Program-made: the position numbers and the translations under genes
The notes under the pieces: generated by a model
Database searches by the model: none
The model's input: the letters and a program-made list of their open reading frames with translations, nothing else
Told to the model about the DNA's origin: nothing
Part shown: one piece after another, positions 1-7,667 of the stretch
Numbering within the stretch: position 1 is the stretch's first letter
Layout of the letters: every line of letters starts with the position of its first letter
Assembly (NCBI GenBank): GCA_016928955.1
Contig: JAFGJV010000004.1
Location: 124,001 to 188,000 of the forward strand
Direction: 5' to 3'
DNA length: 64,000 nucleotides
Source of the DNA: Spirochaetales bacterium
Lineage (GTDB): Bacteria; Spirochaetota; Spirochaetia; Treponematales; UBA12059

Positions 1-229
1 TCCGTCCTTGGAAGAGGGACAGGAGAGCGCTTCGTCCGGCTATCTGGCCATGCTCAACGCAGAGCCTGCCGCCCTGCCCGAAGCCACTGCCACCAGGGCT
101 CCGTCCACCCGCGGACGCAAGCCGGCGGCCCGTGGCGTGGTAGACAGCGCCAAGCGCCCTGGGCGCAAGCCGGGCCCCAAGGCCGGTGGAAGGTCCCGCA
201 GGGACTCAGGCGGAGTACGCGAGCTTTGA
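1..229 (+). CDS. 3' end of an unidentified gene with a basic, AT-hook-like tail
   Basis: The frame is open to the left edge and stops at TGA 227-229, so only the last 75 or so codons are seen and the start lies outside the window. The visible tail is rich in Ala, Pro, Gly, Arg and Lys and contains two RGRKP/GRKPGPK-type clusters that resemble AT-hooks, which suggests nucleic-acid binding. No catalytic domain is visible, so the gene cannot be named. A stem-loop terminator begins 94 bases after the stop. Alternatively it is simply a low-complexity basic tail of a ribosome- or DNA-associated protein. Confidence 0.5.
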   Translation, partial: PSLEEGQESASSGYLAMLNAEPAALPEATATRAPSTRGRKPAARGVVDSAKRPGRKPGPKAGGRSRRDSGGVREL

Positions 230-561: not shown

Positions 562-1596
562 ATGTTGGTCACAAACTACGTATTCGAGGCGTTAGGGTCG
601 CGGGAATCCTTCAATACCTCGGTTCGGCACGTCAAGGCGACCGTGGGGTTGTCGGAAAGGGTGGCGGGCGGCGAGAACCTGGCGGACGCCGTCAACACGC
701 TGCTGGACGAAAAGGCCCTGAGCTTGGACGAGGTGGCGCCGCTGGTGTCTATGTTGCTCGTGGACAAATTATCCTACGTGGCGGTATCCAGGAACCTGAG
801 CACCGTGACCACGGATCTGAAGGCCGTCCACGCCGCCGTAAAATCCTGGAACGCGGCTGATTTCGTCGTCCTGTACCATCATCCGGACCTCGGCTGCATA
901 CTGCTCAACCCCAAAAACGAGTCGCATCTGGCCCGGCTTGACCGGCTGAACAAATACGAGCTCATTACCGTATACGCCGGGGGCTTTGCCAAAGGGCTGG
1001 ACGCCGCGCTGGCGCGGAAGGCGGCACTTGCCCTGGTCGGGCTTTACGAGGGAGACAAACCCAAGGCAGACGCGTCCCTTGGCAAGGGACCGTTCTCGTA
1101 TCGCCAGCCCAAGCCCAAGGCGGCGCCCCGAGCGGAGCCTGCAAAGAAGGCGGGCAGAAAAGCCGCGCCTGCCCGGAAAGGCAAAAAGAAGGCGTCCGCC
1201 GGAACAGCGGTTGCCGAGCAGGCCGTGCGGGCACCCGCGCCGGCTGCTCAGGCACCCAAGATGGGCGCACGCATGACGCCCATGTACGCGGTTCCCGTCA
1301 GCAACGAATTGTTCCACAACGGAAACGTTGAGGCATGGAAGCGCATCATAGAAAGCTACAAGACCAAACACCCCGACCTGGAAGTGCTCGTGTACTACGA
1401 CGGCGAGCGCATCACGGATATCAACGCCCTCTTCAAATGGGGCAAGGTCAAGCACGGCAGCGTCATCCAGTTTGCGGTGGCCGGAGAGAATATCTGCGAT
1501 GTGGCCAAGCTGCAGCGCTATCTGGCCCAGGGCGCGAGCAAGATGTTCGAGGCTTTCCTCCGCGGACCCGTCAACAGCGTCCTTCCCCTGTTTTGA
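562..1596 (+). CDS. Unknown N-terminal domain joined by a Lys/Ala/Pro linker to an HPr-like C-terminal domain
   Basis: The protein is 344 aa. ATG 562 is chosen because GGAAGGGG lies just upstream; in-frame TTG 523 and ATG 547 lack a ribosome site. Residues 1-165 are an alpha/beta region I do not recognise. Residues 180-238 are a Lys/Ala/Pro linker. Residues 241-325 follow the beta-alpha-beta-beta-alpha-beta layout of the PTS phosphocarrier HPr, with His252 at the position of the phosphorylated histidine and a hydrophobic VIQFAVAGE strand where HPr has its SITIKAEGE strand. The Arg-Pro that normally follows the histidine is missing. The gene lies 14 bases before a PEP-utilising enzyme, so a phosphoryl-relay partnership is plausible. 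The HPr resemblance was judged by eye only. Confidence 0.75.
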   Translation: MLVTNYVFEALGSRESFNTSVRHVKATVGLSERVAGGENLADAVNTLLDEKALSLDEVAPLVSMLLVDKLSYVAVSRNLSTVTTDLKAVHAAVKSWNAADFVVLYHHPDLGCILLNPKNESHLARLDRLNKYELITVYAGGFAKGLDAALARKAALALVGLYEGDKPKADASLGKGPFSYRQPKPKAAPRAEPAKKAGRKAAPARKGKKKASAGTAVAEQAVRAPAPAAQAPKMGARMTPMYAVPVSNELFHNGNVEAWKRIIESYKTKHPDLEVLVYYDGERITDINALFKWGKVKHGSVIQFAVAGENICDVAKLQRYLAQGASKMFEAFLRGPVNSVLPLF

Positions 1597-1610
1597 GCAA
1601 GGAGCAGAGC

Positions 1611-4253
1611 ATGAAAGAGCATGTCCATTTTTTCAGCCAGAAAGACGTCATCAAAAAGGGTGTTGAACTAGAGACGCTCGGACAGCGCGGGCGCCAGGCC
1701 AACGAATTCGCGGAGCTTGGTTTTCCAATACTGCCCGGCTTTATCATTGATTCCGTGGTTGCGTCGCACCTGGCCAAGGAGAACGTCCTTGACGCCATCC
1801 GGGCGCCCATGAAAAAGGCAGACGCCGTGGTGGAAAAATCCTACGGCGACCCCAACGAGCCCCTGCTCATCAAGATTGTCATATCCCCGAACCTGGCCAT
1901 ATCCAACTATCCGGCCCTGCACAACTTTGGCCTTGCCAGAAAGACTGTGGGCGGTTTCACGCGCTTTGTGGGGGAGAACTTTGCAGCCCATGAAGTGGCT
2001 TTTCTTGCCAGGGGCATGCTCAAGATAGAGGAGCGCATAGCTGAGCTCGAGAACAGGGACAAGGACCTGGCCAAGATACGCCAGCGTATCGTGGCGGCAA
2101 GCGGAGTGATAGACGAGGCCAAGCCCGGACAGAAGGCCGAGGCGGTGATGGCTAGCTATGAGGCCTTCCTGCCCAAAGGTTTCTTTGACGACGCATGGGG
2201 ACAGCTGGACATAGCGCTCAAGCGCATATCGCACATGCTGGACCTGGACGACCAGGACGACGACGATACAGCCATACTGATCCAGCCCATGGTGTACGGC
2301 AACTACGGAAAGAATTCCGCTTCCGGCGCTTTCTACACGCGCAACGTGGTGAACGGCGAGAAGCGGCTCCAGGGAGAATTCTTCGTTGAGCGCTTCGACG
2401 AGATAGGCGCCGAGGGCAACGACATCAACAAGATCGCCCCTAAGCACCTCAAGGAACTGGAGCGCATAGCCCGTACGCTGGAGGACCGCCAGCGGGAGAT
2501 TCGCCAGATTCGTTTCACCGTCGAGAAGGACAAACTGTGGCTGATTGAGCAGCGGCAGGTGATGGCCAAAAGCACCCAGGCCGACCTGAAGCTGTACCTG
2601 GACCTCAACCAGCGCAAGGTTGTGGACGACGCGTTCGTGATCAACGCCATAAAACCGGGGCGGCTGAACGAGATACTGCATCCGGTGGTCGACATGGCGT
2701 CCGTCAAGAAGCTGGCCGGCGTGAGCGGCGGCATCACGGGAGCGCCCGGGGCCGCCATAGGCCGCGTGTTCTTCACCACGGAGAGCCTGCTTGAGGCCTA
2801 CCGCGTCGCCCAGCAGAAGGGAGAGGACAAACGCCTCATCCTCTGCATGCCCGCGACCTTTGCCGAGGACGTCAAGGCCATAGAAGTTGCATCGGGCGTT
2901 CTGTCCTGCGAGGGCGGCTACTCGGCGCACGCGTCGGTGGTGGCCAGGCAGTACGGCAAGGTGTCGCTCGTGAAGCCAGAGATGAAAATCCGCGGCAAGA
3001 AAGCCACGATCGGCCAGCTGACCGTCAATGAGGGCGATTTCATCACCATCAACGTGCCGTATTACGGGGATCCCCAGGTGTGGCTCGGGAAGGCATCCCT
3101 GATCGAGCCGGACCCTGCGGAATCAGGCCTGTTCGAGTTCATCGCCCTGGTCAAGAAGCACATGAAGCATTTCCACGTCCGCACCAACGCTGACAGCCCC
3201 AGGGACGCGGCACTGGCCCTGTCCTTTGGCGCGGAAGGCATAGGCCTGTGCCGGACAGAGCATATGTTCTTCAACGAGAAGCGCATCAACGTGTTCCGGG
3301 AAATGATCCTGGCAGACAGCCTGGCCGAGCGGGAAAAAGCCCTGGCCAAGCTCCAGGTTATGCAGCGGGAGGACTTCTACGGCCTGTTCAAGGTGATGGC
3401 GGGCAAGGACGTGACCATTCGCCTTCTGGACGCCCCTCTGCACGAATTCCTGCCGCACAACGAGGACGAGCTCGAGTCGTTCATGTCCCATCTCAATTCG
3501 GCCAAGAAGGGCGGCAAGGCTCTGTCCAAGGCCGAGATTCGGGCGCGCATGGACGGCCTGGCCGAATTCAACCCGATGCTCGGCCACCGGGGCTGCCGTA
3601 TCGCGGTGAGCTATCCGGAGATATACGCCATGCAGACGCGCGCTGTGTTCGAGGCGGCGTACAAGCTGCGCGAGGAGAAGGTGGACGTTCGGCCGGAAAT
3701 CATGATACCCATCGTGATGAACGCGTCCGAGCTCAGGCTCATCGTGTACGGCAAGAAAATAGAAGGTCGGACATACAAGGGCATCGTTGACATAGAGGAG
3801 GACGTGCGGCGCAAGCTCGGGGCCAGGGCTTTGCCATACCGCGTGGGAACCATGATAGAGCTTCCAGCCGCGGCCCTGACCGCGGGGGAAATCGCGCGCT
3901 ACAGCGAGTTCTTCAGCTTTGGCACAAACGACCTCACGCAGACGACCCTCGGCATAAGCCGCGATGACTTCAACAGCTTCATGCCGGACTATTCGACCTT
4001 TGACCTGATAGAAGGCAATCCTTTCTCCAGCCTGGCCCCGCCGGTCAAGGAACTGGTGGCCATGGCGGCCAGAAGGGGTCGCATGACGCGGCCGAGCCTT
4101 GAGATGGGCCTGTGCGGCGAGCATGGGGCCAATCCGGATAACGTGCGCTTCTGCATGGACGCCGGGCTGGACTATGTGTCGTGCTCACCGTATTCGGTGC
4201 CCATAGCCTGTCTGGCCGTGGCCCAGGCAGAGCTGGAGCGGGCAAAAGCCTGA
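1611..4253 (+). CDS. Pyruvate,phosphate dikinase-like PEP-utilising protein with a degenerate ATP-grasp domain
   Basis: The protein is 880 aa, the usual PPDK length. ATG 1611 has AAGGAG at 1599-1604. The central phosphohistidine domain is intact (EGGYSAHASVVAR, His440). The C-terminal PEP/pyruvate barrel is very well conserved: VRTNADSP, LLDAPLHEF, LGHRGCR, GTMIELPAAALT, FGTNDLTQ and GLCGEHG with catalytic Cys835. The N-terminal nucleotide-binding domain is not: the LGGKG loop reads LGQRG, the SVRSGAR segment reads IKIVISPNLA, and the QGEDVVAG segment reads IGAEGNDI. Known PPDK uses those residues to bind ATP. I infer an enzyme that takes phosphate from PEP through His440 but may pass it to another acceptor, such as the HPr-like protein just upstream, rather than to AMP. 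Confidence 0.85.
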   Translation: MKEHVHFFSQKDVIKKGVELETLGQRGRQANEFAELGFPILPGFIIDSVVASHLAKENVLDAIRAPMKKADAVVEKSYGDPNEPLLIKIVISPNLAISNYPALHNFGLARKTVGGFTRFVGENFAAHEVAFLARGMLKIEERIAELENRDKDLAKIRQRIVAASGVIDEAKPGQKAEAVMASYEAFLPKGFFDDAWGQLDIALKRISHMLDLDDQDDDDTAILIQPMVYGNYGKNSASGAFYTRNVVNGEKRLQGEFFVERFDEIGAEGNDINKIAPKHLKELERIARTLEDRQREIRQIRFTVEKDKLWLIEQRQVMAKSTQADLKLYLDLNQRKVVDDAFVINAIKPGRLNEILHPVVDMASVKKLAGVSGGITGAPGAAIGRVFFTTESLLEAYRVAQQKGEDKRLILCMPATFAEDVKAIEVASGVLSCEGGYSAHASVVARQYGKVSLVKPEMKIRGKKATIGQLTVNEGDFITINVPYYGDPQVWLGKASLIEPDPAESGLFEFIALVKKHMKHFHVRTNADSPRDAALALSFGAEGIGLCRTEHMFFNEKRINVFREMILADSLAEREKALAKLQVMQREDFYGLFKVMAGKDVTIRLLDAPLHEFLPHNEDELESFMSHLNSAKKGGKALSKAEIRARMDGLAEFNPMLGHRGCRIAVSYPEIYAMQTRAVFEAAYKLREEKVDVRPEIMIPIVMNASELRLIVYGKKIEGRTYKGIVDIEEDVRRKLGARALPYRVGTMIELPAAALTAGEIARYSEFFSFGTNDLTQTTLGISRDDFNSFMPDYSTFDLIEGNPFSSLAPPVKELVAMAARRGRMTRPSLEMGLCGEHGANPDNVRFCMDAGLDYVSCSPYSVPIACLAVAQAELERAKA

Positions 4254-4386: not shown

Positions 4387-6195
4387 ATGAATGTTATGGA
4401 TGGCCACGCGATATTCAATCTGTTCATGGCGGGAGCCAAAAGGGTCCATGAGCTCAGGCGGGAGCTTGACCGCATCAATGTGTTTCCGGTTCCTGACGGC
4501 GACACGGGGAGCAACATGTCGTTCACGCTGGCTGCCGCTGTTTCCGGGGCGCGTGCCGACAGGTCGGTCGCGGCTGTGGCGCGTTCCCTGGCTGATTCGG
4601 CCCTTGCTGGGGCGCGGGGCAACTCGGGCGTGATCGTCGCTCAGTTCATAACGGGTTTTGGAGAGGCAGTGGCGGACTCCGTCAGTCTGAGCCTCAGGCA
4701 GTTCGCCAGCTCCTGTGTCCACGCCAGCCGCAGGGCTCAGGACGCGATAGCACATCCTGCTGAAGGAACCATCCTGAGCGCCATCAAAGCGTGGGCTGCT
4801 GCCCTCGAGTCTTCGGTCACGGACAGTCCCACGCTGTCTCACCTGCTCGAGAAGGCGCATCCGAGCCTTGAGGAAGCCGTGAGGCGGGGCCCGGACAGGC
4901 TGCCGGAGCTCAAAGCGGCGGGAGTCGTGGACGCGGGTGCCAAGGGGTTTGAGGCTTTTGTGTCCGGCTTCAGGGACTTTGCCGAGGGCAGGATAGACCC
5001 GGGTGACCTTGCATCGGCCGCCTTCGGGTCTGTTGCACCGTCAATCGAGCCGGAGGCTGAGGCGCACGGATCGCGTCCAACGCTACGCTACTGCTGCGAA
5101 TTCCTGATGGAAGCGAGGCCAGAGCATTCTTTGGACCTTGACCGCCTGCGGGAGGAGCTGGACCAGGAAGGCGACTCCCTGATCGTGGCCGGTGGAAACA
5201 TGAAAGCCCGGGTGCATATCCACGCCGACGACCCGTCGCGCATAGCGGGTTTGCTGTCCGCCAAGGCTCGCCTGATCGAGCAGAAGGGGGACGACATGCT
5301 CCTGCAGTACCTGGACGCGCACGAGCGCCTGTCCGATGTGGCCATACTCACCGATTCTGCATGCGACCTGCCTGCCGAGCTTGCCCTCAAATACCGGATC
5401 CATCAGGTGCCCCTTTACGTTCGCTTTGGCGACGAGGAATACCTGGACAAGCTGACGGTTACGCCGGACAGCTTCTATGACCGCGCGGAGCGCGGTCCGT
5501 ATTTCCCAAAGAGCTCCCAGCCAACGGCGCTTGCATTCAGCCGAGCGTACGCGACACTTGCAAGCCATTACCGCTCCGTCATAGCCATCCATCTGGCGTC
5601 AACCATGAGCGGAACCTATGAGGCATCGCGCAGGGAAGCGGAAAGGGTCGCAGCGTCCGAGGGCGTCAGGATAGACGTGTTCGATTCCCGGCACCTGTCT
5701 GGCTCGCTCGGGCTTATCGTCCTGGAAGCTGCGCGCATGGCTGAAAGCGGGTCGTCCCACGAACAAATCATGGAGGCCCTGCCAAGGCTGTCCGCGGCCG
5801 CAGAGAACCTGGTCAGCGTGCGGACTCTGCGGTATATGGTGCTTGGAGGCAGGGTGAGTCCACTGAAAGGACTCATGGCCCGTGTCATGAACCTGAAACC
5901 CATCGTGTCCGTGGACAAGCAGGGAAAATCGGTCTTGTACGGCAAGGCGTTCAGCATCAAGGCCAACGAGAAAAAAATCCTCGATATGGCCAAAGGCTAC
6001 GCTGAGAGGAGCCCTCTAGCCAGCTGGGCCGTCGTGCACGCACATGCTGAGGCGGATGCCCGTGCCTTTGCCAGGAAAGCTTCCGCTGTCCTCGGGTCAG
6101 AGCCGGCGTACATGTGCGAAATATCCAGCATCATTGCGATGAATTCCGGCCGTGGAGCGGTGAGCTTTGTGTGCGTGAAAGGTCCCGGCGCCTAA
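4387..6195 (+). CDS. Fused fatty acid kinase: DhaL/FakA domain plus DegV/FakB lipid-binding domain
   Basis: The protein is 602 aa; ATG 4387 has GGAG at 4375-4378. Residues 1-200 are a DhaL-type ATP-binding domain with DGDTGSNM (37-44) and GARGNSG (75-81). A middle region carries the conserved Cys (YCCEF) and HIHADDP of FakA/YloV proteins. From about residue 318 it is a complete DegV domain (VAILTDSACDLP, IHLASTMSGTYE, LGGRVSP). In Firmicutes FakA and FakB are separate: FakB carries the fatty acid while FakA phosphorylates its carboxylate. Here both are one polypeptide, which would fix the stoichiometry and restrict the kinase to one binding domain. Domain calls are secure; the exact lipid is unknown. 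Confidence 0.9.
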   Translation: MNVMDGHAIFNLFMAGAKRVHELRRELDRINVFPVPDGDTGSNMSFTLAAAVSGARADRSVAAVARSLADSALAGARGNSGVIVAQFITGFGEAVADSVSLSLRQFASSCVHASRRAQDAIAHPAEGTILSAIKAWAAALESSVTDSPTLSHLLEKAHPSLEEAVRRGPDRLPELKAAGVVDAGAKGFEAFVSGFRDFAEGRIDPGDLASAAFGSVAPSIEPEAEAHGSRPTLRYCCEFLMEARPEHSLDLDRLREELDQEGDSLIVAGGNMKARVHIHADDPSRIAGLLSAKARLIEQKGDDMLLQYLDAHERLSDVAILTDSACDLPAELALKYRIHQVPLYVRFGDEEYLDKLTVTPDSFYDRAERGPYFPKSSQPTALAFSRAYATLASHYRSVIAIHLASTMSGTYEASRREAERVAASEGVRIDVFDSRHLSGSLGLIVLEAARMAESGSSHEQIMEALPRLSAAAENLVSVRTLRYMVLGGRVSPLKGLMARVMNLKPIVSVDKQGKSVLYGKAFSIKANEKKILDMAKGYAERSPLASWAVVHAHAEADARAFARKASAVLGSEPAYMCEISSIIAMNSGRGAVSFVCVKGPGA

Positions 6196-7106: not shown

Positions 7107-7667
7107 CTATTCAGTGGTGAATTCCCAGGTCAGGGTCTCTTCCACCTTCTTGGCTATCTGCTTGGCTATTTTTGACGCGTCCGCCATGGGCACGCCGGCT
7201 TCCCGGTTCAGCGTCTTTTCAAAGAACATGGCCATGCTGGCGTACATGTCTGGCAAGAAGAAAAAGGTGAACGCAAAATTGACACCCGTGGGCTTGACTA
7301 TGGTGAGCGAGGTGTAGGACAAGACGGCTTTTTTGCCCCAGTACACCTTGGTCTGGTTCTTGCAGGTGTGAAGCTCCAGCTCGTTGAAACGGTGAGGAAT
7401 CTGTTCGTGGCTGGTTCTGATGTAGGGTTCCTCGGACTTGTGCGCGTAGTTCATGGGTTCAACGAGTATGTACAGCTTCTTGCCGTCAGCCTGGAAGGTC
7501 AGGCCTTCCTCGGCGGGATAGATGGCCTTGACGTTGTTATAGGAAACTATCTCATAGCGGGAATACGCGGAATTGGGACTGAAGAACGATGAAACAATAT
7601 ACCCGTTTTCCTTGGGAAGCATATTCTTGCTGTACGCGTCATACAGGTCCATGGCCTTGGGGTTCAC
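7107..7667 (-). CDS. Conserved-looking protein of unknown function, first gene of the DUF1295 operon
   Basis: The protein is 186 aa. GTG 7667 is preferred over ATG 7652 because GAGGAGG lies 6 bases upstream. I recognise no motif. The protein is soluble-looking, with alternating beta-type segments and aromatic residues (YIVSSFF, YEIVSYNNVKAIY, LYILVEPMNYAH), and has a helical, Lys-rich C-terminus. No signal peptide or membrane helix is evident. It may act with the DUF1295 protein, since the genes are 8 bases apart and share the promoter at 7697-7725. Confidence 0.8.
   Translation of the reverse strand: MNPKAMDLYDAYSKNMLPKENGYIVSSFFSPNSAYSRYEIVSYNNVKAIYPAEEGLTFQADGKKLYILVEPMNYAHKSEEPYIRTSHEQIPHRFNELELHTCKNQTKVYWGKKAVLSYTSLTIVKPTGVNFAFTFFFLPDMYASMAMFFEKTLNREAGVPMADASKIAKQIAKKVEETLTWEFTTE

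Follow-up and report, generated by a model that had tools for sequence, protein, structure and literature searches.

In a 64,000-nucleotide stretch of a Spirochaetales genome (the window; coordinates are window positions unless prefixed G000:C1), two neighbouring genes encode an HPr-like protein and a paralogue of pyruvate phosphate dikinase (PPDK). We consider it probable that the pair forms a phosphohistidine relay of dikinase descent, fuelled by phosphoenolpyruvate (PEP), in which phosphate would pass from PEP to His440 of the PPDK-like enzyme and from there to His252 of the HPr-like protein, probably serving the filament made of cytoplasmic filament protein A (CfpA). New here are the identical distribution of the two genes over 93 genomes, their co-inheritance with CfpA, and the single ancient clade of the enzyme, which apparently includes TP0746 of the syphilis agent Treponema pallidum; no earlier description of the pair was found in the open-licence papers searched.

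Both genes lie on the + strand with a gap of 14 bp: the HPr-like protein (344 residues) is encoded at 562-1596 (ATG at 562, stop at 1596) and the PPDK-like enzyme (880 residues) at 1611-4253 (ATG at 1611, stop at 4253). An earlier note, made from the letters alone, had proposed these two reading frames and their key residues, and all are where it placed them: His252, the putative phosphate acceptor (codon 1315-1317, +); His440, the phosphohistidine of the swivel domain, equivalent to His455 of C. symbiosum PPDK (codon 2928-2930, +); and Cys835, equivalent to Cys831 of the same enzyme (codon 4113-4115, +).

The PPDK-like enzyme is homologous to PPDK over its full length, its best structural match being PPDK 5jvl (E 9.9e-63), but its profile scores depart from those of the family. 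In Pfam, the PEP barrel (5.9e-69) and the mobile histidine domain (4.7e-8) are recognized, while the ATP-binding domain stays below its cut-off (24.7 versus 27 bits). The NCBIfam PPDK model TIGR01828, with a cut-off of 843 bits, gives 648 bits to the window enzyme and 609 to the T. pallidum-like enzyme, against 1318 for the canonical paralogue. The enzyme I model TIGR01417 gives the window enzyme 91 bits, below its cut-off of 341.7, and a Pfam search for the HPr-binding domain of enzyme I (EIN, PF05524) returned no match in it.

An alignment was built of 93 full-length orthologues, 18 spirochaete PPDKs of canonical type and the enzyme of C. symbiosum, whose numbering is used from K22 to C831. 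Lys22 is replaced by arginine in every orthologue, the VRSGA loop has become VISPNL with the loss of Arg92, and Gly101 and Arg135 are likewise replaced. Glu279 is non-acidic and Asp321 is glutamine in most orthologues, Gln335 is glutamate or aspartate, and Glu323 is arginine in 92 of the 93, a charge reversal at an acidic position. By contrast, K22, R92, D321, E323 and Q335 are intact in all 18 canonical enzymes, and replacements present in the whole of one group and absent from the other are not due to chance. In the window the former nucleotide-binding (ATP-grasp) domain occupies 1611-2660 (+) and carries R26 for K22, Q299 for D321, R301 for E323 and E313 for Q335, R92 being lost. Three ATP-binding motifs had been claimed as missing from it; this holds for SVRSGAR and QGEDVVAG, which read KIVISPNLA and EIGAEGNDI, whereas LGGKG reads LGQRG and is changed rather than wholly gone. 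In plant PPDK, Arg95 and Glu324 are reported to have a direct role in ATP binding (PMC5507339); by position they should correspond to R92 and E323.

The same picture extends across the phylum. None of the 25 distant orthologues (13 and 12, in separate alignments) keeps K22, R92 or E323; column 321 holds E, N, Q, R, W or Y in them, and the column of Q335 shifts between runs; in none of the 93 and 25 orthologues are the ATP residues conserved at shifted places. The catalytic half behaves in the opposite way, as the earlier note had supposed: H455, R561, R617, E745, N768, D769 and C831 are each kept in 93 of 93 orthologues, and His440 and the PEP-site residues also in the distant ones. Within the window, the PEP/pyruvate-binding barrel (3123-4250, +) retains R548, R604, E750, N773, D774 and C835. 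The former ATP-grasp domain has invariant residues of its own and is strongly conserved, which argues that it is not drifting and was converted rather than abandoned. One complete, single-contig genome (G034) encodes an enzyme of about 587 residues from which this domain is entirely absent, while the histidine and PEP domains are kept; here the ATG of the enzyme shares bases with the stop codon of its HPr-like neighbour (TGATG), and the partner is retained. Other irregular versions were also seen. Orthologues at L212, L213 and L226 have frames of 965-971 residues with some 80-90 extra residues in or beside the former ATP-grasp domain, and at L251 1894-4577 (-) (genome G251) and L108 3049-5741 (+) the gene is split at different places into two overlapping frames, through either sequencing errors or decay.

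These results bear on the current annotation, and especially on T. pallidum. The single-contig genome G032 (1.14 Mb) encodes the PPDK-like enzyme at 810740-813367, beside the HPr-like gene and cfpA. Nucleotides 810772 and 811414 are published as lying within TP0746 'ppdK' (PMC10013896) and, from the matching coordinates, we infer that G032 is T. pallidum and its enzyme TP0746; the cfpA gene of T. pallidum is TPANIC_0748 (PMC8525777). TP0746 is treated in the literature as an ATP-forming PPDK (PMC10013896, PMC8525777). The enzyme could indeed still be a PPDK that makes ATP (or PEP), with a diverged nucleotide site and the HPr-like protein as its regulator, an explanation favoured by this literature, by the full-length homology to PPDK structures and by the failure to find either pyruvate kinase (PF00224) or a canonical PPDK in G032, since some enzyme should form pyruvate from PEP there. 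Nevertheless, we regard it as quite unlikely: each of K22, R92, G101, R135, E279, D321, E323 and Q335 has been replaced, with arginine or lysine in place of E323 in nearly all orthologues, a natural version dispenses with the ATP-grasp domain, and most genomes with the PPDK-like enzyme also hold a canonical PPDK, the aligned ones having every residue intact. Should the ATP site prove dead, the PPDK step accepted for T. pallidum would have to be re-examined.

The HPr-like protein was modelled with AlphaFold from a 54-sequence alignment (overall pLDDT 82.6, with the minimum in the linker). The model comprises an N-terminal alpha/beta domain (residues ~10-165), a low-confidence linker rich in alanine, proline and lysine (~166-233) and a C-terminal domain (234-344; 1264-1593, +). 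The last of these is predicted to contain a strand (242-245), a helix (255-269), two strands (274-279 and 282-284), a helix (287-292), a strand (301-308) and a helix (314-323), which is the beta-alpha-beta-beta-alpha-beta-alpha order of the HPr fold. In a Foldseek search of the PDB, HPr chains from many species form the majority of the top 33 matches, with probabilities up to 0.99 and TM-scores up to 0.70 normalised on the target (E. coli HPr), so that the HPr shape anticipated by the earlier note is recovered at the level of structure. His252 stands directly ahead of helix 255-269, at the start of the first helix as in HPr, and is invariant in every intact homologue examined. The segment NELFHNGNVEAWK, which holds His252, and the segment LFKWGKVK are invariant in 41 sequences spanning the phylum; together with His252 they form the most conserved part of the protein and fall on the first and second helix. 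In HPr, the first helix after the histidine and the second helix are the face that binds enzyme I and the EIIA partners.

For the N-terminal domain, neither Pfam nor Foldseek gave a match or a convincing fold. His107 in this domain was considered as an alternative acceptor; it is invariant in close relatives and is disfavoured because several distant homologues have lost it. A sequence search for HPr homology by hmmsearch against PDB chains gave nothing: its top match, an RxLR effector at 4.5e-4, is weak and partial and was judged to be chance. Almost every HPr-like protein has Leu-Phe as its exact C-terminal end (residues 335-344 of the window protein and its homologues), the G034 protein extending six residues further; this end looks like a docking tail.

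The two genes are consistently found together. With regard to pairing and SEPARATENESS, a survey of 295 genomes of the spirochaete phylum (raw counts) showed that the genomes with the HPr-like gene and those with the PPDK-like gene are one and the same set of 93. In 79 of the 80 named loci the HPr-like gene immediately precedes the PPDK-like gene, the remaining one ending at a contig edge, and it does so too in the close relatives with sequence available there, so that the pair can be called obligate. The two also co-occur when on different contigs (G075, G079, G096; family f40). In family f41 they are on one strand, several kb apart, with three genes between them (L216 881-5512, L229 912-4689, L227 5020-9048, L218 5011-9454); these encode a protein of about 240 residues with a weak DUF6602 match, a vWA-domain protein and a protein of about 870 residues that lacks a Pfam match, and are candidate further partners of the relay.

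Orthologues are clearly separated in score from the canonical paralogues, the lowest orthologue scoring 814 bits (the truncated version) and the highest canonical paralogue 663. In the tree they group as a single clade on a long stem (support 0.99), apart from the canonical spirochaete enzymes, which points to one ancient conversion. The window genome has its canonical PPDK (G000:C1:286390-289026), enzyme I and HPr elsewhere, placing the pair, as had been claimed, apart from the canonical phosphotransferase system (PTS). PDRP (PF03618), sought as an indicator of canonical PPDK regulation, was found in none of the 15 genomes examined and is uninformative. The presence of canonical HPr and enzyme I in the same genomes would also allow the pair to feed the canonical PTS, exchanging phosphate with canonical HPr or EIIA and with the HPr-like protein as an accessory. 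We find this very unlikely: canonical HPr occurs in almost every relative, whether or not the pair is present, and its distribution therefore gives no link to the pair, whereas the partner that is linked is the HPr-like protein.

A candidate for the beneficiary of the relay emerges from the gene upstream. CfpA filaments span the cell length, and in the cfpA mutant of T. denticola chromosome condensation and filamentation are seen (PMC13398306, PMC3398590); CfpA filaments of treponemes are tied to cell division and are required for bone loss in a mouse model of T. denticola infection (PMC3398590). The 3' end of cfpA occupies 1-229 (+) of the window (whole gene G000:C1:122175-124223) and, because only its last ~75 codons are inside, CfpA had been missed by the earlier note. 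Its product scores 1348 bits with a CfpA alignment profile, and the orthologue at L047 reaches 1227 bits with NF040882 (CfpA; cut-off 500). The gene is the same-strand neighbour of the pair in 94 of 101 loci. Over the survey, CfpA is present in 94 genomes, namely 92 of the 93 with the pair and two others, and in ten genomes it co-occurs with the pair while unlinked to it. In the one pair genome without a detected CfpA (G028), the contig starts at the HPr-like gene. Five families (f3, f5, f8, f10 and f12) each have genomes with all three genes and genomes with none, suggesting several independent joint losses. Given this co-inheritance, what the relay serves is likely to be the filament or something bound to it. 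In the literature searched, open-licence papers only, we found none connecting CfpA with a phosphorelay.

The same co-inheritance would fit a structural or pseudoenzyme role, in which the pair bridges or anchors parts of the filament ribbon and His440 and His252 serve regulation or ligand binding and not phosphotransfer. The strong conservation proper to the former ATP domain would fit this too, and tomography of treponemal filaments by Izard in 2004 (cited in PMC3398590) reportedly, going by its title, names novel bridging and anchoring components. However, every PEP-site residue checked, Cys835 and the phosphohistidine are fully conserved, which argues for retained catalysis, and we hold the structural explanation to be unlikely.

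Several observations weigh against a relay that serves CfpA. The likeness to HPr is structural only, with Foldseek E-values of at least 0.07 and none below 0.001; PF00381 (Pfam) does not match the HPr-like protein at E <= 1, and the HHalign profile comparison lends no support to HPr homology. An Arg-Pro after the active histidine (HxRP) is nearly universal in HPr, yet His252 is followed by none, as noted at the outset, the sequence being H-N-G-N in all 41 homologues. Two genomes break the association with CfpA: G129, a 93%-complete draft, has CfpA without the pair, while its congeners have all three genes, and G267 has a divergent CfpA-like protein (813-residue frame, L252 3899-6337, -) without the pair, which also offers a lead to filaments running without the relay. 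The co-occurrence counts ignore kinship, though the five mixed families hold both kinds of genome, and co-inheritance with CfpA carries no information on how the relay would act on the filament. Lastly, a terminator lies between cfpA and the pair in the window: a terminator-like hairpin (322-349, +; 12 bp with 10 G-C pairs, then a T run) is followed by a sigma-70-like promoter, TTGACA-17-TACTAT (356-384, +; a consensus match only), so that the two are likely to be transcribed separately there.

Downstream, the pair is directly followed by a DAK2-DegV fusion gene (4387-6195, +), FakA-FakB-like, patchy in the phylum and possibly a one-chain fatty acid kinase; a second DAK2 match in the window genome is at G000:C25:1579-2502, in a 615-residue frame. 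This neighbour raises the idea that the pair is a PEP-dependent kinase of a small molecule or lipid, similar to DhaM/DhaL, with DAK2-DegV as its last step, the more so since an HPr-type domain is also employed by PEP-dependent dihydroxyacetone kinases. Taken as a negative control in the survey, however, DAK2-DegV occurs in 55 of the 295 genomes, 23 of them with the pair against 17 expected. It is not a conserved neighbour and is absent from most pair genomes, including G032 and G024; the fusion appears unrelated to the pair. On the grounds of its neighbourhood and distribution we reject a DhaKLM-like relay to DAK2-DegV, and a DhaM/DhaL-like role for the pair is extremely improbable.

The control had originally been meant to be another gene, encoding a 186-residue protein of unknown family (7107-7667, -). 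It was exchanged for DAK2-DegV because it follows the pair, which is present in 73 of its 74 genomes; the gene is nearly confined to genomes with CfpA and the pair, even where it is unlinked to them. The protein has no NCBIfam match and was not found in G032; with the same distribution as the pair, it may belong to the module.

Mechanistically, the PPDK-like enzyme would take phosphate from PEP at the barrel (Cys835 site) onto His440, and the swivel domain would then pass it to His252 of the HPr-shaped domain in place of a nucleotide, since with the nucleotide site gone there would be no onward transfer to AMP and PPi. The flexible linker could let the carrier swing while the N-terminal domain, which probably sets the target or place of the HPr-like protein, holds a fixed partner. 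The ATP-grasp remnant may dock the carrier, although its loss in G034 suggests that such docking is not always needed. At the far end, the relay would probably tune the filament to the supply of PEP, for example its assembly, anchoring or turnover. The relay interpretation of the earlier note is supported, in that its predictions checkable by computation, on sequences and predicted structures, all speak in favour.

A wider proposal is conceivable, and we advance it tentatively: that spirochaetes evolved, apart from the PTS, a PEP-to-protein relay from PPDK which couples the intermediate-filament-like CfpA ribbon to glycolytic PEP, and that the 'PPDK' of T. pallidum is a regulator, leaving its ATP-yielding step from PEP to pyruvate without an assigned enzyme. 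If true, it would mean an independent origin of PEP-dependent protein phosphorylation, from a metabolic enzyme minus its ATP half, the first candidate regulators for the CfpA filaments of treponemes, and a correction of the TP0746 annotation on which metabolic models of T. pallidum rest.

Compared with known systems, the PPDK-like enzyme shares with PPDK (EC 2.7.9.1, TIGR01828) the full-length three-domain architecture, the swivel phosphohistidine and the PEP barrel, and differs in its replaced nucleotide site, sub-cut-off score, obligate HPr-like partner and own monophyletic clade. VadK of M. tuberculosis retains the ATP half and is not known to have the PEP barrel, which would make it the mirror image of the spirochaete enzyme. 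Like it, VadK (Rv1127c; PMC13400623) is a PPDK-derived protein turned to regulation, as a histidine kinase; it is portrayed as a kinase that autophosphorylates and has abandoned its role in central carbon metabolism. Rifampin phosphotransferase (PMC4844700) also reuses the dikinase-type histidine swivel for a new acceptor, but it uses ATP, phosphorylates an antibiotic and carries, where PPDK has the PEP barrel, a domain that binds rifampin. The CfpA filament system of Treponema is connected through cfpA, the upstream and co-inherited neighbour of the pair. In its proposed working, from PEP to a swivel histidine and on to a histidine of a small HPr-shaped carrier, the pair is closest to enzyme I and HPr of the PTS (and EINtr and NPr of PTSNtr). 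However, the enzyme descends from PPDK and lacks the helical HPr-binding domain EIN, while the carrier is without the HxRP motif, bears an additional N-terminal domain plus linker and falls outside PF00381. As far as sequence can tell, the pair would work like enzyme I and HPr as a member of neither family, through a relay derived from a dikinase, independent in origin from enzyme I, and of PPDK descent without the features that define PPDK catalysis.

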